Source: Methanosarcina vacuolata Z-761 (GTDB lineage Archaea > Halobacteriota > Methanosarcinia > Methanosarcinales > Methanosarcinaceae). Taken from it: a stretch of 64,000 nt of DNA. Numbering within the stretch: the stretch's first letter is position 1; each line of letters begins with the position of its first letter. Location: contig NZ_CP009520.1 of assembly GCF_000969905.1 (NCBI RefSeq), forward strand, positions 1,736,001 through 1,800,000. The letters are read 5' to 3'. The notes under the pieces are model-generated. The model searched no databases. It worked only from the letters and a program-made list of their open reading frames with translations, and had not been told where the DNA came from. A program made the position numbers and the translations under genes. This document shows positions 25,568 to 51,384 of the stretch, piece after piece.

Positions 25568-25639
25568 AATCAGGAGTGGGAATCGAACTCACATAATTCC
25601 GGGTTGCAGCCGGAAGCATCACCACTCTGCCATCCTGAC
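25568..25639 (-). tRNA. tRNA-Cys (GCA), divergent copy
   Basis: The 72-nt cloverleaf: acceptor GTCAGGA / TCCTGAT (one G1-U72 wobble), D arm GCA/TGC, anticodon stem TCCGG/CCGGA with loop CTGCAAC (anticodon GCA, A37), 5-nt variable loop, T stem GTGAG/CCCAC with loop TTCGATT (an A-C mismatch in the stem), and discriminator U73, the main cysteine identity base. CCA is not encoded. It is clearly different in sequence from the three tRNA-Cys genes at 45-50 kb. The weak first pair and T-stem mismatch leave some doubt about efficiency, but promoter and operators upstream suggest it is used. Confidence 0.85.
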
Positions 25640-25681: not shown

Positions 25682-25732
25682 TTCACAATTGTGATTGTTT
25701 GTTCACAATCGTGAACCTACTATAAATAACTA
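25682..25732 (-). promoter_or_regulatory. tRNA-Cys promoter with two operator palindromes
   Basis: On the minus strand: a TATA-like TTATTTATAG (25723-25732), palindrome TTCACGATTGTGAA (25702-25715; plus strand TTCACAATCGTGAA), then ATCACAATTGTGAA (25682-25695). The distal palindrome starts about 27 bases after the TATA box, the same place as in the other tRNA-Cys promoters. Both lie across the expected start site, so binding there should repress. Confidence 0.7.
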
Positions 25733-29501: not shown

Positions 29502-29515
29502 TTCACAATTGTGAA
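29502..29515. promoter_or_regulatory. Operator palindrome at nifS
   Basis: Exact TTCACAATTGTGAA, ending 9 bases before the proposed GTG start of nifS. A TATA-like CTTAAATAG (29531-29540 region, minus strand) lies about 15 bases on the other side, so the site covers the transcription start. Confidence 0.75.
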
Positions 29516-29744: not shown

Positions 29745-29757
29745 ATCTCAAAAAGTG

Positions 29758-30147
29758 ATGATAACTGTGGAAACTCCATGTCAGAAAATTGTGTGGGATC
29801 TGGTTCCCGCAATAAGGGCCAGTCTTGCAATCGAACTTGTAAAAAAAGGACAGTCACAGGCAGCGTCTGCAAAGTTGCTGGGGATTGCCCCGTCGGCAGT
29901 TTCCCAGTACATTTCGGGAAAAAGAGGCTACAGGATTGAGTTCCAGGGCGAGACGAAAGAATTGATTGAAAAACTTGCGCAGGATTTGATCGATAACAAC
30001 GTCTCTGACTTTGTAATAAGGGTTTGTGATATCTGTGTAAGTGCCAGAGGAATTGAAAATAAGTGCAGTAGTGGTTGCGGTTCGGAAAAACAAGCTGGTG
30101 ATAATAAGGAAGATGAAGCGAAAAATCAAGAAAAAGCTGAAACATAA
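29758..30147 (+). CDS. HTH transcriptional regulator with Cys-rich C-terminal motif
   Basis: The 129-residue protein has an XRE/lambda-repressor-like helix-turn-helix (about 31-56, GQSQAASAKLLGIAPSAVSQ) and a second part with four cysteines, C90-x2-C93-x9-C103-x3-C107, plus C8 near the N-terminus, followed by a Lys/Glu-rich tail. The cysteines could hold an Fe-S cluster or zinc, or react with sulfur species. It is divergent from nifS and just upstream of cysK, both of which carry the shared operator, making it the best local candidate for the operator-binding protein. That link is inference. GTG 29755 precedes ATG 29758; no ribosome binding site is visible. Confidence 0.8.
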   Translation: MITVETPCQKIVWDLVPAIRASLAIELVKKGQSQAASAKLLGIAPSAVSQYISGKRGYRIEFQGETKELIEKLAQDLIDNNVSDFVIRVCDICVSARGIENKCSSGCGSEKQAGDNKEDEAKNQEKAET

Positions 30148-30360: not shown

Positions 30361-30374
30361 TTCACAATTGTGAA
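30361..30374. promoter_or_regulatory. Operator palindrome at the cysK promoter
   Basis: Exact TTCACAATTGTGAA about 12 bases downstream of the TATA-like ACTATATTTAAC. A leader of about 225 bases separates it from the cysK ATG. Confidence 0.75.
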
Positions 30375-37467: not shown

Positions 37468-37481
37468 TTCACAATTGTGAA
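37468..37481. promoter_or_regulatory. Operator palindrome between larE and the MoaD-like gene
   Basis: Exact TTCACAATTGTGAA in the divergent intergenic region, 68 bases upstream of larE and 114 bases upstream of the MoaD-like gene. One site could control both directions. Confidence 0.75.
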
Positions 37482-44398: not shown

Positions 44399-45391
44399 TC
44401 AAATATCTTTATTAGGTGTCAGGTCACAGCCAGTACATAGAAGACACATTGTTCGCGATTTATCGACACAGAGCGACTCACGGTCAAGCATATCCTTCAG
44501 CATACCTCCCAGTTTTAAAAGCCGCGCAGTGTCTGGCCTTGTGATCTTCACATTTTTTCTTAGTGGGCTGGGAGAAATAGGTCTTAGAATTGGAATTATG
44601 CATCGGCTTGTAAGGAGCTTGATGCCCTTTTGGACAGTTTCGTCACTTTCCCCAAGGCCAATTATAAAATTCGAAGAAACCCTATTTTTTCCGAAAACAT
44701 TCACTGCACTGTCGAGAGCATCAAGAACATTGTAGAGCGAGAGGTCAGGACAGAAGCGCCTGAAAAGCTCAGGGTCCATAGTTTCAACATTGTATTTTAT
44801 CTCACCTGCGCCTGCAGAATAAAGTTCTTCTGACGAACCTGTCGTGGGATAGACCGAGACACCTACTGGAAGATCGTACTCACGCGTAAGTTGCTTTATG
44901 ATACTTGCCGCCCTCTGGACTTCTGTCTTTGGCGAAACAGCTACACCGCTGGTAAGGGAAATTGCCTTCAGTTCGCCTGTTGCATAAGCTTCCTCAACCA
45001 TCTTCAGAACCTTTGTACTATCCTTTATCCCTCCCTGGATTTTCGGTACCGGACAAAACTGGCAATCATACACACATTTTTCAGATAGCGTAATGTATGC
45101 CTGTTCCGGACAGTGACAAAGCGGACGTTCAAGTGCTCCCCTGGCAACTACATCATTGCCTTTAACAATTACCACATGCTCATCTTCCGGTACTAAACGC
45201 AAAGGAGATGCATCATTAATTGTAAGCCTCACCCTTCGGTTTCCAGACTTCAAAAAGATTGAAGTGCCACCTGCTCCGGGTCCGGCTGTAGCCTTGCTCT
45301 CAAGCTTGTCAGGAAAAAGAGAATCATCTACCTGAACACTTCCTATGCTTAACAGAGCTGCCTTAGTATTCGTATTCAGTTCTTTGTCCAT
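44399..45391 (-). CDS. Radical SAM protein next to the marker-16 operon
   Basis: The 330-residue protein has the radical SAM cluster motif CVYDCQFC (Cx3Cx2C), a glycine-rich SAM region SLTSGVAVS and the barrel strands VGVSVYPTTG, YNVETMDPELF and FIIGLGESDETV. A preceding CHC and a C-terminal CVDKSRTMCLLCTGC suggest one auxiliary Fe-S cluster. About 90 N-terminal residues form a separate beta-rich domain (GAGGTSIFLKSGNRRVRLTIND). The overall look recalls lipoyl- or biotin-synthase-like radical SAM enzymes but I cannot name the reaction. It is upstream of and on the same strand as the ABC ATPase, with its own triple operator. Confidence 0.8.
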   Translation of the reverse strand: MDKELNTNTKAALLSIGSVQVDDSLFPDKLESKATAGPGAGGTSIFLKSGNRRVRLTINDASPLRLVPEDEHVVIVKGNDVVARGALERPLCHCPEQAYITLSEKCVYDCQFCPVPKIQGGIKDSTKVLKMVEEAYATGELKAISLTSGVAVSPKTEVQRAASIIKQLTREYDLPVGVSVYPTTGSSEELYSAGAGEIKYNVETMDPELFRRFCPDLSLYNVLDALDSAVNVFGKNRVSSNFIIGLGESDETVQKGIKLLTSRCIIPILRPISPSPLRKNVKITRPDTARLLKLGGMLKDMLDRESLCVDKSRTMCLLCTGCDLTPNKDI

Positions 45392-45485: not shown

Positions 45486-45558
45486 TTAACAATTGTGAAT
45501 ATAATCGTAAGCTAAATTGATTAACAATTGTGAACTGTGCAATATTAACAATTGTGAA
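45486..45558. promoter_or_regulatory. Triple operator upstream of the radical SAM gene
   Basis: Three copies of TTAACAATTGTGAA (one mismatch to the operator) at 45486-45499, 45521-45534 and 45545-45558. The first two are the ends of a 32-bp perfect direct repeat (45468-45499, 45503-45534) that begins AATCGTAAGC. They are 95-167 bases upstream of the radical SAM ATG. Confidence 0.75.
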
Positions 45559-45806: not shown

Positions 45807-45881
45807 AGGCATATTTTGCCTCAAAGAGCAGGTTTAAATATTAGGAATAAGTATGATGATTTGCTCATTCACAATTGTGAA
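45807..45881 (+). promoter_or_regulatory. tRNA-Cys promoter module
   Basis: In order: dyad AGGCATATTTTGCCT (45807-45821), TATA box TTTAAATATT (45833-45842), operator TTCACAATTGTGAA (45868-45881), then the tRNA 7 bases on. The same layout recurs at 49363-49436 and 48250-48324. The dyad is in an activator position and the palindrome in a repressor position. Confidence 0.8.
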
Positions 45882-45888
45882 TGCCGGT

Positions 45889-45959
45889 GCCAGGGTGGCG
45901 GAAAGGCTACGCAATGGACTGCAGATCCATTTATCCCGGTTCGATTCCAGGCTCTGGCT
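45889..45959 (+). tRNA. tRNA-Cys (GCA), G37 type
   Basis: 71 nt: acceptor GCCAGGG / CTCTGGC (one G-U), D arm GCG/CGC, anticodon stem ATGGA/TCCAT, loop CTGCAGA (GCA, G37), T stem CCCGG/CCAGG with loop TTCGATT and one C-A mismatch, discriminator U73. CCA is not encoded. The gene and its promoter are near-identical to 49363-49514, a clear duplication. G37 allows m1G37, which is known to matter for recognition by SepRS. Confidence 0.95.
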
Positions 45960-46175
45960 TAAAAGTGTTCTCATAAACTCTATCAGAAAACTTTTAGTAA
46001 GAAAGTTTAGGATTTTTACTCCGGGAGATTTTAACAAAAGTACACTAATAGTAAAATCAGGTACTTCCAACCGTATTTAGTATGTTGATATTTAAGCAAC
46101 CGAAATCTGATACTAGCAACTTAAATCTGGTACTATTGATTTTTCGTATTTCAACTGTGTAAGTTTGAATCTACT

Positions 46176-47210
46176 ATGAGAAAAACGAACTTTTATTCAA
46201 CGGGATTCAAAATGACTGAAATTGAAGTTAGAGAATTGGTACCATCCGAATACAGAGAATGGGATTTGCTTGTGCAAGAAACTCAACCGGGTACACTTTT
46301 TCATACAAGTGACTGGCTGGAAACTTACAGAAATGTTCTTTCAAAGGACCTTAGATTCTACGGTTGTTTCAGAAACGATAATGAGCTTGTAGGTGGATGC
46401 CCTCTATTTGTCAGGAACTTCAAAGGAATCCTCAAGATGGCATCTTCGACCAGTAATATGATTGACTACTGCGGACCTCTTATCAAAGAAAGTTCCAGCA
46501 CCAGAACAAATAAAAAAGCGCAGGAAACTCACGAAATCTTTGACGCACTCAGGAAGTTTCTGTGCAGACAGGGTTTTGATAGTATTCACCTGAGATTCTC
46601 TCCGGGAATTGAGGATATCAGACCGTTTACCTGGAATGGATGGGACTCAAAGGTCCATTACACCCATCACCTGAATCTGAAGGAAAATGTTGATAATAAG
46701 ATCTCAAGGACAATAAGGAAGGACCTCAAGTCTGTATTAAAGGCGGGGCTTGAGACAAAGATATGGAATGACCTTGAAACTTATTATAGTCTGCTTTCCA
46801 AAACGTATGAGAGGCAGAATCTCAAACCACCACTACCCAAAAGGTTTTTCGAAAAGGTTTTTGACCTTATTCAAAAAAAAGATATCGGTTACATGCTTAT
46901 ATCCGAAACTCCAGAAGGAGAAGCCGTTGCAGCGCATTTGACTCTTTACGGAAAAGAAAGTACGATTGGCTGGTCTTCTGCCCGGAATCCGGCTTTTAAC
47001 CTTAGAGGATCAAATGCTCTCCTTTACTATAATGAGTTCCTCGACTTGCAGTCCAGAAATTTCGAATACATGAATGTTATGGCAGGAAATGTTCCCAGAT
47101 TTGCGGATTATATTATGGGCTTTTCTCCTAAACTCGTTCCTTACTACAGTGTAACCTTAGAGAACAAGAAATATTCAATTCTCAAGGCCTTATATAAAGT
47201 AGCGACTTAA
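46176..47210 (+). CDS. FemAB/GNAT-type acyltransferase-like protein
   Basis: The 344-residue protein fits the FemAB-like GNAT superfamily (PF13480 type): an N-terminal domain with TLFHTSDWLETYRNVLSK and FYGCFRNDNELVGGCPLFV, and a second GNAT-like half with IRKDLKSVLKAGL, GEAVAAHLTLYGKESTIGWSSARNP and ALLYYNEFLD. Relatives transfer aminoacyl or acyl groups to peptidoglycan precursors or exopolysaccharides; in an archaeon the acceptor may be a surface polymer or lipid. If FemX-like it would use an aminoacyl-tRNA, intriguing beside tRNA-Cys genes but unproven. A second ATG at 46212 is possible. Confidence 0.7.
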   Translation: MRKTNFYSTGFKMTEIEVRELVPSEYREWDLLVQETQPGTLFHTSDWLETYRNVLSKDLRFYGCFRNDNELVGGCPLFVRNFKGILKMASSTSNMIDYCGPLIKESSSTRTNKKAQETHEIFDALRKFLCRQGFDSIHLRFSPGIEDIRPFTWNGWDSKVHYTHHLNLKENVDNKISRTIRKDLKSVLKAGLETKIWNDLETYYSLLSKTYERQNLKPPLPKRFFEKVFDLIQKKDIGYMLISETPEGEAVAAHLTLYGKESTIGWSSARNPAFNLRGSNALLYYNEFLDLQSRNFEYMNVMAGNVPRFADYIMGFSPKLVPYYSVTLENKKYSILKALYKVAT

Positions 47211-47466
47211 TATAAAAATTGGGGTTATTTTTTGAGTTGTTGTTGAAAATCAGAAGATCCAGAAGATCCCAAAAAATAATCATACACGAAAAAATCAAAA
47301 ACCAGGACCACTTTGAGGAGAATTATAATTACTGTTTTTCTCCTTTCTTCAGGTGTATCATTAATGCATATAACTGTATACAATTAATAAAAACAAGTTT
47401 TGTTTAACATATAAACAGATAAAATTTATATTTTTACTTTTAAACAGGAAAGATGGGGATGAAAAA
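47211..47466. other. Short gap without a convincing gene
   Basis: A 62-codon frame (47219-47407) has no ribosome binding site or recognisable domain and is not called. A TATA-like TTTATATTTTTA lies about 40 bases before the next gene. Confidence 0.4.
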
Positions 47467-47796
47467 ATGAAGGTCGCTATCGTTTCAACTGATGGTAAGG
47501 TTATCAACCAGCATTTTGGAAAAGCATCCAGGTTTTTTATATTTGAGATTGATGATTGTGGTAAAATACAATTCTTAGAAGTTAGAGAGACTATGCCTTT
47601 ATGTGGCTCAGCGGATGAAGGGCATGCCGATGATGTTTTAAGCAGAACAATTTCTTTGATATCTGACTGTGAAGCTTTGCTTTGCTCCAGAATTGGCAGC
47701 AGGCCGCGAGAAGAATTAAGGAAAAAAGGAATTAAACCAGTTGAAACTCCCTACTTTATTGACGAAGCTTTAAAAAGTATATCTGAAGCTGAATAA
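47467..47796 (+). CDS. NifX/NifB C-domain-like iron-molybdenum cluster protein
   Basis: The 109-residue protein is a single dinitrogenase iron-molybdenum cofactor biosynthesis domain (PF02579): KVAIVSTDGKVINQHFGKASRFFIFEI at the start with the conserved HFG, and CEALLCSRIGSRPREELRKKGIKPVETPYFIDEAL at the end. Relatives bind Fe-S cofactor precursors. Ribosome binding site GATGGGGATG precedes ATG. No nif operon is adjacent, but a nitrogenase-like pair lies 7 kb downstream, so a cluster-carrier role for that system is an open possibility. Confidence 0.85.
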   Translation: MKVAIVSTDGKVINQHFGKASRFFIFEIDDCGKIQFLEVRETMPLCGSADEGHADDVLSRTISLISDCEALLCSRIGSRPREELRKKGIKPVETPYFIDEALKSISEAE

Positions 47797-48249
47797 TCAG
47801 GGTTAAACAGTTCCAAGTCACCTTATTTCCGAATTATGATTCACTAATGTTTAGCAAATATAATGACTTTCCATATCTGAAAAATTACAGATGCCAAAAC
47901 ATTATACACTTATTTTTGAGCCACAGTAATTCCTGTTTAATCTCTTGAACCTGCAAGAGTAATCTGGAGAATAATCTGGAAAATAATCTGGAAGATAATC
48001 TGGAAAATAATCTGGAAAATAATCTGGAAAATAATCTGGAAAATAATCTGAAAGATAATCTGAAAAATAATCTGAAAAATAATCTGGAGAATAATCTGGA
48101 GAATAATCTGGAGAATAATCTGGAGAATAATCTGGAGAATAATCTGGAGAATGATCTCTATTCTTGTTGAAATCGGAGAGGTTGCACAACTGCTTTTTTC
48201 TATCAAACAGGCAATTTACATCCTCAATCTGCGGATATTGATAATTTGC
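47797..48249. other. Intergenic region dominated by a minisatellite
   Basis: No gene is called. Open frames across the repeat (reading NLEN on one strand and PDYS/IILQ on the other) are products of the 12-bp period, not evidence for a protein. Confidence 0.7.
47961..48156. repeat. 12-bp tandem repeat, about 16 units
   Basis: AATCTGGAGAAT and variants with GAAAAT, GAAGAT, AAAAAT repeat continuously. Variation is concentrated at three positions. The last unit diverges into GATCTCTATTC. Confidence 0.95.
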
Positions 48250-48324
48250 AGGCACTTTTTGCCTTAAAAACGAAATTTAAATATTAATAATGAATAGGAT
48301 GTTTTGTCAGTTCACGAATGTGAT
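48250..48324 (+). promoter_or_regulatory. Orphan tRNA-Cys-type promoter module
   Basis: Dyad AGGCACTTTTTGCCT (48250-48264), TATA box TTTAAATATT (48276-48285), then a decayed palindrome TTCACGAATGTGAT (48311-48324) at exactly the spacing of the tRNA-Cys promoters. No tRNA follows; the next gene starts at 48427. Either it drives that gene or it is left from a lost tRNA-Cys copy. Confidence 0.65.
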
Positions 48325-48426
48325 GACAATCGAAAAAAGAGCTGAAAAGATAGGTAAAATGGAAAAAAACAGAACAGATAGACTAATTTGAAGAAGGTAA
48401 AAGCATGAATTCAATAAGGTTAAAGT

Positions 48427-48891
48427 ATGAAAGGAGCGATCGTTGACGGAACAGAAAATTCTGCCCTCGATCTGAATGAAAATATTGCTGAAGAAGTATG
48501 GCGAGAGTTTGAAGATGAGCTTACGGTTGAAATATTCTGGGAAGCTCTTGATCTAACTGGGTTCCACATTCTCCTGCATATGGTATATCATATACTTCTT
48601 GCAGTAGAGTATGTATCTCCTGAAGTTATAACCAGCCCTCTTGATGTGATTGAACAGAAGATTTCTCAAAATGAGAACGATCTCCTTGAAGAAGGAAAAT
48701 CCAGAGTGTGGCGGATATTCAATAGATATCACATTTCAGGCACAGGGATAAAAATGCGCGGACAGCTAAGAGCAGAAAATAGAAAAGATCCAGGGTTATA
48801 TGGGAACTTTGTCACAGAGTCCAATAATACATTAACTAACTCTGTGTTTCCAAATATAACCGAAACATTAACTTCCTCATACTGTTGTTGA
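48427..48891 (+). CDS. Hypothetical protein in the tRNA-Cys array
   Basis: The 154-residue protein is not recognised. The first half is acidic and helical (EEVWREFEDELTVEIFWEALDLTGFHILLHMVYHILLAV in outline, no signal peptide), the second half basic then Asn/Thr-rich. Its only two cysteines are the last two residues (SSYCC-stop), encoded TGT TGT. AAGGTT lies 8 nt before the ATG. It is preceded by a tRNA-Cys-type promoter and followed 470 bases later by the next such promoter. A Cys-Cys end could act as a metal ligand or as a translation sensor of Cys-tRNA; both are speculation. Confidence 0.55.
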   Translation: MKGAIVDGTENSALDLNENIAEEVWREFEDELTVEIFWEALDLTGFHILLHMVYHILLAVEYVSPEVITSPLDVIEQKISQNENDLLEEGKSRVWRIFNRYHISGTGIKMRGQLRAENRKDPGLYGNFVTESNNTLTNSVFPNITETLTSSYCC

Positions 48892-49362
48892 TTGAGATTA
48901 TAAAATCCCTAACCTCCTATTTTCTTTTTTGTTTGAAAATTTACTGTCACAAAATATTTTCGAAAAGAAAAACCTCATTTTAACTAATCAACCATTAAAA
49001 ATAAGCAGCATTTCGAATCACGATTTCTGAATATTTATACGAAAAAAGACCAAACTATAGGAGCTCCATATATTATTGTACCAGCTCTTTTGATCATGTT
49101 GTTAACAATTTATTTTTCACCTTTTCCGCATCATATCATTAACCAATAGTAATCGGATTTCAAATAAATTTCTTGTAACTACTCTTGTTCATTATTCATT
49201 TCTCCTTCTTTTCTGAATACTATAGCTTGCTGTAACCTTTTAAAAAATATTTCTGCTAGCATTGTATAGATACCATGCAGTAATTTACTATGCTTATAGG
49301 TTCTCTATCAATACGAGCAGAAAACTTGTGAAGAAAAATTTCAGTTTCTCTTTGAAGTAAAA
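48892..49362. other. AT-rich intergenic region without a gene
   Basis: Only T-rich terminator-like runs after the previous gene and short open frames were seen. Nothing recognisable. Confidence 0.5.
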
Positions 49363-49436
49363 GGTATTTTTTGCCTCAAAAAGCAGGTTTAAATATTAAA
49401 AACGAGTATGATGTGTTGCTAATTCACAATTGTGAA
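49363..49436 (+). promoter_or_regulatory. tRNA-Cys promoter module
   Basis: Dyad AGGTATTTTTTGCCT (49363-49377, one arm mismatch), TATA box TTTAAATATT (49388-49397), operator TTCACAATTGTGAA (49423-49436), tRNA start 49444. Nearly the same sequence as 45807-45881. Confidence 0.8.
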
Positions 49437-49443
49437 TAGTGGT

Positions 49444-49514
49444 GCCAGAGTGGCGGAAAGGCTACGCAGTGGACTGCAGATCCATTTATCCCGGTTCGAT
49501 TCCAGGCTCTGGCT
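49444..49514 (+). tRNA. tRNA-Cys (GCA), G37 type
   Basis: 71 nt with a perfect acceptor GCCAGAG/CTCTGGC, anticodon stem GTGGA/TCCAT (one G-U), loop CTGCAGA, T stem CCCGG/CCAGG with the same C-A mismatch as the copy at 45889, discriminator U73. It differs from that copy at only two positions, so the pair is a recent duplication that included the promoter. Confidence 0.95.
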
Positions 49515-49566
49515 TAAAAGTTTTCTTGTAAATAGAAACAGGAAAGCTTTTAACAAAAAAATTTTA

Positions 49567-49639
49567 AGGCGCATTTAGCCTGAAGGAGGAACAAATAAAG
49601 GTTATAATGAATTGCAAACACCGACTTCACAATTGTGAA
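49567..49639 (+). promoter_or_regulatory. Promoter module of the tRNA-Cys/pscS/metY operon
   Basis: Dyad AGGCGCATTTAGCCT (49567-49581), weak TATA-like CAAATAAAG (49592-49600), operator TTCACAATTGTGAA (49626-49639, extended to a 16-bp palindrome by flanking C and G). Spacing from dyad to operator (44 bases) is close to the 45-46 of the other modules. It is the only obvious promoter before the tRNA-Cys at 49918. Confidence 0.65.
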
Positions 49640-49917: not shown

Positions 49918-49989
49918 GCTGAGATGGCGGAAAGGCTACGCGATGGACTGCAACTCCATTATATCCCGGTTCGATTCCGGGTCTCAGCT
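49918..49989 (+). tRNA. tRNA-Cys (GCA), A37 type, upstream of pscS
   Basis: 72 nt with all stems perfect: acceptor GCTGAGA/TCTCAGC, D arm GCG/CGC, anticodon stem ATGGA/TCCAT, loop CTGCAAC (GCA, A37), T stem CCCGG/CCGGG, discriminator U73. Its 3' end is 12 bases before the pscS ATG and there is no terminator between, so tRNA and mRNA are probably one primary transcript, separated by tRNA processing. The A37 loop is shared only with the tRNA at 25568. Confidence 0.95.
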
Positions 49990-50001: not shown

Positions 50002-51384
50002 ATGGATATAAGAACACAGAAAACATTTGAGGCACTTTTTGCCCTTGAAGATATTAGGGAGATCCTTAGACAAAGGCTTCCAAATACCAAAAGCCCAGAA
50101 GAAGAAAACACCATTAAAGAAAGTGTAAATAAGGTCAGAAAATTTCTGGATGATATCGAAAATGATGCCGGAACCCCGGAAGTAAGAAAAATAGCTGATA
50201 ATATTGATATTCGGTCCAGAGAAGAAACAAACATCAATATACAGCCAATCCAGGCAGCAGGAAGGCTTACACCCGAAGCACGAAAAGCTCTCATAGCATA
50301 TGGCGACGGCTATTCCACCTGTGATGCCTGCCGCAAACCTTTCAGGCTTGATAAAATAAGCAGTCCACCTATTGCTCCCTTTCATGAACAACTTGCAAGC
50401 TTCGTTAACATGGATGTGGCTCGAGTAGTGCCAGGTGCAAGGAGAGGGTTCCAGGCAGTGACATCGTCTCTGGTCAACAAAGGTGATTCCGTAATAGTCT
50501 CGGCTCTTGCTCATTATACAGAATTCCTAGCAGTAGAAGGAGCAGGAGGAATAGTTCGAGAAGTTCCCTTAAACGAACACAATATTGTGACTGCAGATGC
50601 TACTGCTGAGAAAATTGAAGCGGTTAAGCAGGAAACAGGTAAATTACCTGTACTGGTAATGATCGACCACTTTGATTACCAGTATGCAAACGAGCACGAT
50701 GTAAAAGGCATTGCAAAAGTTGCCCACCAGTATGACATTCCTTTCCTGTACAACGGGGCATATACTGTTGGCGTCAGGCCGGTTGATGGAAAAGATATCG
50801 GCGCGGATTTTGTTGTAGGTTCAGGCCACAAAAGCATGGCATCCCCTGCACCTTCTGGAGTACTGGCAACAACTGAAGAATGGGCTCCCAGGATATTCCG
50901 CACAACTCAGATGACTGGCGATCTAACCAAACGCAAATTTGGAGTAAAAGAAGTCGAGATGCTTGGCTGCACACTGATGGGTTCAACTTTGCTAGGCATG
51001 ATGGCTTCATTCCCTACAGTTAAGGAGAGAGTAAAGAATTGGGAAGACGAATTGAAAAAATCGAATTATCTGATCGATGGCTTGCTCGCTATTGAAGGCA
51101 GTAAAGTCGTCTCAGAGTATCCACGCAAACATACCCTTTCCAAAGTTGACACCATCAATAGCTTCGATCTTGTAGCGCAGAAAAATAAACGCAGAGGTTT
51201 CTTCCTTTCAGACGAACTTTCAAAAAAGGGTATTGTCGGAGAATTTGCAGGAGCCACAAGAGTCTGGAAACTTAATACATACGGGCTTTCGTGGGAGAAA
51301 GTTCGCTATGTCGTAGACACATTCCAGGAAATCGCTGAAAAATATGACCTTCAGGTAAACAAGGAGAAGAATTCCAATGACTAA
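50002..51384 (+). CDS. pscS: Sep-tRNA:Cys-tRNA synthase (SepCysS)
   Basis: SepCysS converts O-phosphoseryl-tRNA-Cys to cysteinyl-tRNA-Cys with PLP and a sulfur donor; it is the second step of the tRNA-dependent cysteine pathway of methanogens. The protein has the PLP lysine K277 in [14 protein letters not shown], the catalytic cysteines Cys107 and Cys110 ([10 protein letters not shown]) and Cys323 (EMLGCTLMG), all three known to be needed. At 460 residues it has an N-terminal helical extension of about 80 residues compared with shorter archaeal homologues. AGGGG precedes the ATG. It overlaps metY by 8 bases and follows its substrate tRNA gene. SepRS is not in the window. Confidence 0.95.

Follow-up and report, generated by a model that had tools for sequence, protein, structure and literature searches.

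Archaeal tRNA genes are generally regarded as constitutive. Activators of the archaeal Lrp type bind upstream of the core promoter, with little freedom in the distance (PMC2995911). Archaeal Lrp sites are mostly clustered. The site of Ss-LrpB reads TTGCAAAATTTGCAA (PMC4046817). On nif promoters of methanogens a repressor acts together with a separate activator, the NrpR/NrpA pair (PMC9765008). Here we describe a composite promoter of cysteine tRNA (tRNA-Cys) genes in Methanosarcina vacuolata Z-761, in which a 15-bp dyad, a TATA element and a palindrome stand at fixed distances. The copies lie in a stretch of 64,000 nucleotides (NZ_CP009520.1, positions 1,736,001 to 1,800,000), called the window throughout and numbered from its first letter. 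On balance we favour the view that these are regulated promoters for tRNA-Cys, O-phospho-L-seryl-tRNA:Cys-tRNA synthase (SepCysS) and a few sulfur genes, combining an upstream activator with a start-site repressor and tied to sulfur or cysteine status.

Architecture of the composite promoters

Three promoters, with dyads starting at 45807, 48250 and 49362, have the same layout: a dyad of the form AGGCA-N5-TGCCT (15 bp in a 5-5-5 arrangement), exactly 11 bp, the TATA element TTTAAATATT, 25 bp and a palindrome, which leaves 46 bp from dyad to palindrome in each. The dyads read AGGCATATTTTGCCT, AGGCACTTTTTGCCT and, with one mismatch, AGGTATTTTTTGCCT, respectively. The palindrome, TTCACAATTGTGAA at the first and third promoters, is degenerate at the second (TTCACGAATGTGAT, three mismatches), where the TCAC/GTGA half-sites are intact and related variants occur at the orthologous promoters of genomes G004, G026 and G016. 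A fourth promoter (49567) is a degenerate copy, in which a weak dyad AGGCGCATTTAGCCT (two mismatches) is 44 bp away from a perfect palindrome and TTTAAATATT has no recognisable match. The original prediction had proposed this layout with a gap of 10-11 bases and a third start at 49363; the arrangement stands, with the start moved to 49362. Its fourth promoter does keep the spacing within two bases, but the TATA element described there as weaker is in fact without a match.

The 4.56-Mb genome has two exact copies of the composite dyad-N6-14-TTTAAATA, both in this window, and none of the reversed control pattern. With one mismatch allowed there are 39 matches in 30 genomes against 4 for the control. 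The short dyad alone, with two mismatches allowed, is not unusual in the window, with 32 matches for 24.5 expected, so the weight rests on the fixed arrangement and its conservation. Two further sites were judged to be chance: a one-mismatch match at 1728267 of the genome, probably near rRNA and with no protein gene close downstream, and a dyad-like site at 50030 inside the SepCysS gene, which encodes FEALFALE as part of the protein and is not the same in the gene of a relative (L046). A tandem repeat, its unit near AATAATCTGGA, occupies 47965-48160, between 47796 and the second promoter.

Conservation in two orders

A search for dyad plus TATA element found matches in 12 of 30 Methanosarcina genomes. 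The palindrome lies 46 bp past the dyad in most dyad promoters of those 12, be they at tRNA-Cys, at a pseudo-tRNA-Cys or open reading frame (ORF), or at cooS, the gene of a CooS-type carbon monoxide dehydrogenase, where the spacing recurs in three species (G006, G007 and G020; L099, L109 and L130). When the gaps were left loose, with the right half TGCCT, TATA element and palindrome required, 16 promoters were recovered from 11 genomes, with matches of equal length in 15 and one base longer in the other. Where promoters were chosen without regard to the dyad, its columns average 0.80-1.16 bits and the upstream flank 0.15. Most promoters of the accessory tRNA-Cys module keep the dyad at 46 bp across other Methanosarcina, and the refuting condition of the original prediction, a dyad lacking in other Methanosarcina, did not arise.

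The second order provides a more distant comparison. Methanomicrobiales promoters of tRNA-Cys and SepCysS genes, picked via palindrome and TATA element only, were scored with the unrelaxed window dyad: at a gap of 11 bp it gave 111 of 200 matches, the next best offset giving 67. None of 2000 shuffles reached this value and each half of the dyad separately peaks at gap 11. A relaxed dyad, GGNA-N5-TGCC, was set post hoc, and for that reason we place weight on the offset test with the unrelaxed form. Without requiring the palindrome, the dyad plus TATA search of 18 Methanomicrobiales genomes gave 12 matches against 2 for the reversed pattern. All 12 are at cysteine or sulfur genes, namely tRNA-Cys/SepCysS, a homologue of the radical S-adenosylmethionine (SAM) gene at 44399 and ThiF-MoaD genes; we caution that the genomes were chosen through their SepCysS loci, so that the tRNA-Cys share is partly by choice, which does not apply to the radical-SAM and ThiF-MoaD matches. 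In this order a second, imperfect copy of the palindrome abuts the TATA element.

At two loci (L128, L260, from 1501) a dyad and TATA element without palindrome precede a short ORF ending in two or three Cys codons, an arrangement suggestive of a cysteine leader peptide or attenuator. Downstream follow a CCTCC...TTTT stretch and an ORF resembling a nitrogenase-type component 1 protein.

Dyad and palindrome are separate elements

Each element is found without the other. A metYX-linked tRNA-Cys is matched in 25 of the 30 Methanosarcina genomes; it lacks the dyad, and most copies carry one or two palindromes. The main tandem tRNA-Cys genes have no palindrome; roughly half the genomes retain TTGCC 11 bp ahead of TATA and two have a fuller dyad, although these sequences are closely related and count for little. 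The claim that the dyad is distinct from the palindrome is therefore borne out. The idea of the dyad as a tRNA-Cys promoter feature needs narrowing: it applies to the accessory module, but the metYX-linked gene lacks the dyad, the main tandem genes have only a degenerate one, and cooS, radical-SAM and ThiF-MoaD genes also carry the module. The palindrome further marks sulfur genes of the window, namely metYX with its tRNA-Cys, iscS, cysK-cysE, larE and a radical-SAM gene. Promoters of non-Cys tRNA genes examined in this genome, only 12 of them with a clear TATA element, have neither dyad nor palindrome, and we reject a generic tRNA promoter element since the dyad is in none of these upstream regions.

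Candidate binding proteins

The gene at 29755-30147, between iscS and cysK, encodes a small Cys-rich protein that is likely the binder of the palindrome. Its relatives, which reach from Methanolobus to Methanothrix and Methanomicrobiales, occur in 15 SepCysS loci. In 14 of these the gene has a palindrome (up to two mismatches) no more than 350 bp away, usually 20-50 bp upstream of it, compared with a background density of 0.21 per kb. A paralogue adjoins a second cysK and has its own palindrome. Residues C8, C90 and C93 are invariant and a fourth cysteine is common. The structure model consists of five helices. A fold search gave nothing significant, its weak matches including many DNA-binding proteins (best E 0.85), and there is no Pfam or NCBIfam match at E 0.001. 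Given no curated family match, we call the protein helix-turn-helix (HTH)-like only and do not assign it to XRE/HTH_3.

For the dyad, AGGCATATTTTGCCT and its variants form a 15-bp (semi)palindrome, with a centre that is T-rich in Methanosarcina. The 5-5-5 form fits a dimer of the Lrp/AsnC family, and a protein of this type is our leading guess for the putative binder. An encoded Lrp protein with an HTH domain, L144, scores 62.6 bits against PF01037; its frame is open and extended at the N terminus. At one promoter (L015) two dyads are separated by 20 bp.

Proposed mechanism

Transcription in archaea starts some 25-30 bp past TATA by standard spacing, which places the palindrome a few bases into the expected transcript, in a repressor position; archaeal repressors usually cover the TATA or start region. 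A dimeric activator bound to the 15-bp dyad, 11 bp upstream of TATA, may aid recruitment of TBP and TFB. The Cys-rich HTH-like repressor, most likely the 29755-30147 product together with its paralogue, would occupy TTCACAATTGTGAA just past the predicted start and block polymerase when cysteine or sulfur is sufficient. The dual control originally suggested is matched in geometry by an activator-like dyad just upstream of TATA and a repressor-like palindrome at the predicted start; activation and repression themselves, the identities of both binders and the signal are inferred. Directly supported are both elements, their rigid spacing, conservation across orders and separability, and the link of the HTH-like gene with the palindrome. 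Cysteine tRNA is probably tuned to sulfur supply, not made constantly. More tentatively, and short of an even chance, we entertain an ancient dual-control cysteine promoter in two methanogen orders, in which an activator reads GGNA-N5-TGCC ahead of TATA at tRNA-Cys, SepCysS and sulfur-transfer genes and the Cys-rich HTH-like protein represses at the start.

Several observations weigh against this picture. The upstream site of the HTH-like gene in the window is itself weak (29731, three mismatches). Neighbourhood links no regulator gene to the dyad module, AsnC/Lrp-domain matches number only two in the genome, one apparently a stand-alone domain, and nearly all promoters have just one dyad, unlike the usual Lrp clusters. 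Within the genus the spacers are conserved too (0.69-0.84 bits), so that shared descent may account for part of the rigidity there.

If the proposal is correct, sulfur or iron-sulfur (Fe-S) status would govern how strongly a single tRNA isoacceptor family is transcribed, bringing tRNA-Cys and tRNA-dependent cysteine synthesis into line with supply. A conserved two-site promoter common to an isoacceptor family and an enzyme that makes cysteine on that tRNA would show plainly that tRNA transcription can be under amino-acid-specific control, and the HTH-like protein offers a candidate sulfur regulator for methanogens.

Alternative explanations

Could the dyad simply strengthen the promoter? As an extended B recognition element (BRE) or other upstream contact of cysteine-tRNA promoters it would act constitutively and leave regulation to the palindrome alone, a proposal with which the fixed 11-bp spacing to TATA and the degenerate dyad without palindrome at the main tandem tRNA-Cys are both in keeping. 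Its absence from the non-Cys tRNA promoters examined, its recurrence at sulfur genes and the symmetric 5-5-5 form, suggestive of a dimer, make this unlikely.

The dyad might also be a second operator, or be bound by a protein that represses or merely marks the promoter, with control negative at both sites. It is a symmetric site close to TATA, and the sign of control is deduced from position; it ends 11 bp before TATA, however, outside the usual archaeal repressor zone and where archaeal activators bind (PMC2995911), and we find this reading doubtful, a little more so than constitutive strengthening. That one HTH-like protein binds both elements is improbable: they share promoters, but their half-sites are unlike (AGGCA compared to TTCAC) and each occurs alone.

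The inverted repeat with its T-rich loop, in several copies within tandem tRNA arrays, could suggest that it forms an RNA hairpin or terminates a transcript coming from upstream; we reject this as very improbable because pairing is broken (AGGAA...TGCCT) at cooS and in Methanomicrobiales and yet the distance to TATA remains 11 bp. Least probable of all, and also rejected, is resemblance through recent duplication of a tRNA-Cys unit, since, for all the 93% identity of the first and third window copies over 116 bp, the dyad is kept in diverged Methanosarcina and its unrelaxed form is enriched at the 11-bp gap in Methanomicrobiales.

Genes and other features of the window

Features discussed above and their neighbours are collected in Table 1. 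The original prediction placed the module at tRNA-Cys genes, which is accurate for 45807 and 49362, the only promoters with such a gene directly downstream; 48250 precedes an ORF (48427-48891), and 49567 stands some 280 bp ahead of the third tRNA-Cys, which SepCysS follows. A relative (L137, genome G014) has an intact tRNA-Cys between its counterpart of the second promoter and the ORF, and others have decayed tRNA sequence at this position. The ORF belongs to no known family, yet in relatives with identities down to approximately 34% the protein still ends in Tyr-Cys-Cys or Tyr-Cys before TGA, with a T-rich stretch behind it. At L256, L270 (from 1501) the full module stands before an apparent, badly decayed tRNA-Cys that is not called as tRNA.

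The SepCysS of the window scores 409.8 bits against TIGR02539, above the curated cut-off of 365.25. All 30 Methanosarcina genomes searched have a SepCysS match and nearly all have a separate protein of approximately 388 amino acids, 41-44% identical; the 460-residue form is patchy within the genus. In G020 a tRNA-Cys with an intact dyad promoter has pieces of the accessory SepCysS directly behind it (contig C36, 47460-47692); they are short, and one contains stops.

Table 1. Promoter elements and genes, in window coordinates
Position	Strand	Feature	Family
25682..25715	-	Two palindromes, no dyad, upstream of metYX-linked tRNA-Cys (25568-25639)
29502..29515	-	Palindrome, no dyad, start of iscS operon
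29755..30147	+	Small Cys-rich HTH-like protein, 130 amino acids, candidate palindrome binder	No Pfam/NCBIfam family
30361..30374	+	Palindrome, no dyad, upstream of cysK-cysE
37468..37481	-	Palindrome, no dyad, larE-type gene
45486..45558	-	Three palindromes, each with one mismatch, within near-identical repeat units, upstream of radical-SAM gene 44399-45391
45807..45821	+	Dyad AGGCA-N5-TGCCT, promoter 1
45833..45842	+	TATA element TTTAAATATT, promoter 1
45868..45881	+	Palindrome TTCACAATTGTGAA, promoter 1
45889..45959	+	tRNA-Cys (GCA), accessory type, behind promoter 1
48250..48264	+	Dyad, promoter 2
48276..48285	+	TATA element TTTAAATATT, promoter 2
48311..48324	+	Degenerate palindrome TTCACGAATGTGAT, promoter 2
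48427..48891	+	Conserved ORF, 154 amino acids, behind promoter 2
49362..49376	+	Dyad with one mismatch, promoter 3
49388..49397	+	TATA element TTTAAATATT, promoter 3
49423..49436	+	Palindrome TTCACAATTGTGAA, promoter 3
49444..49514	+	tRNA-Cys (GCA), accessory type, behind promoter 3
49567..49581	+	Weak dyad AGGCGCATTTAGCCT, promoter 4 (no clear TATA)
49626..49639	+	Palindrome TTCACAATTGTGAA, promoter 4
49918..49989	+	tRNA-Cys (GCA) immediately 5' of SepCysS
50002..51384	+	Accessory SepCysS, 460 amino acids	NCBIfam TIGR02539

Comparison with known systems

Among open papers we found no account of the palindrome, of such a sulfur regulator or of a tRNA-Cys regulon. By gene neighbourhood the locus resembles the clade VII SepCysS loci of Mukai et al. 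2017 (PMC5424206), with an accessory SepCysS beside tRNA-Cys and sulfur genes, but the main text of that paper does not mention 'promoter' or 'palindrom'. In common with NrpR/NrpA, a repressor and a separate activator would serve one promoter set; the sites and genes are others and here a tRNA gene is among the target classes. The closest likeness in the sites is to archaeal Lrp/AsnC proteins (Ptr2 of M. jannaschii, LysM and Ss-LrpB), which recognise a palindrome of 15 bp, two 5-bp arms around an A/T-rich centre of 5 bp, as in the dyad (PMC2995911, PMC4046817); the GCA-N5-TGC core of the Ss-LrpB site is identical to that of the dyad (PMC4046817). As with archaeal Lrp activator sites the position of the dyad is constrained, 11 bp before TATA in two orders. 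Unlike the Lrp/AsnC systems, the dyad targets tRNA-Cys and sulfur genes, the sites are nearly always single and the putative binder is a guess.

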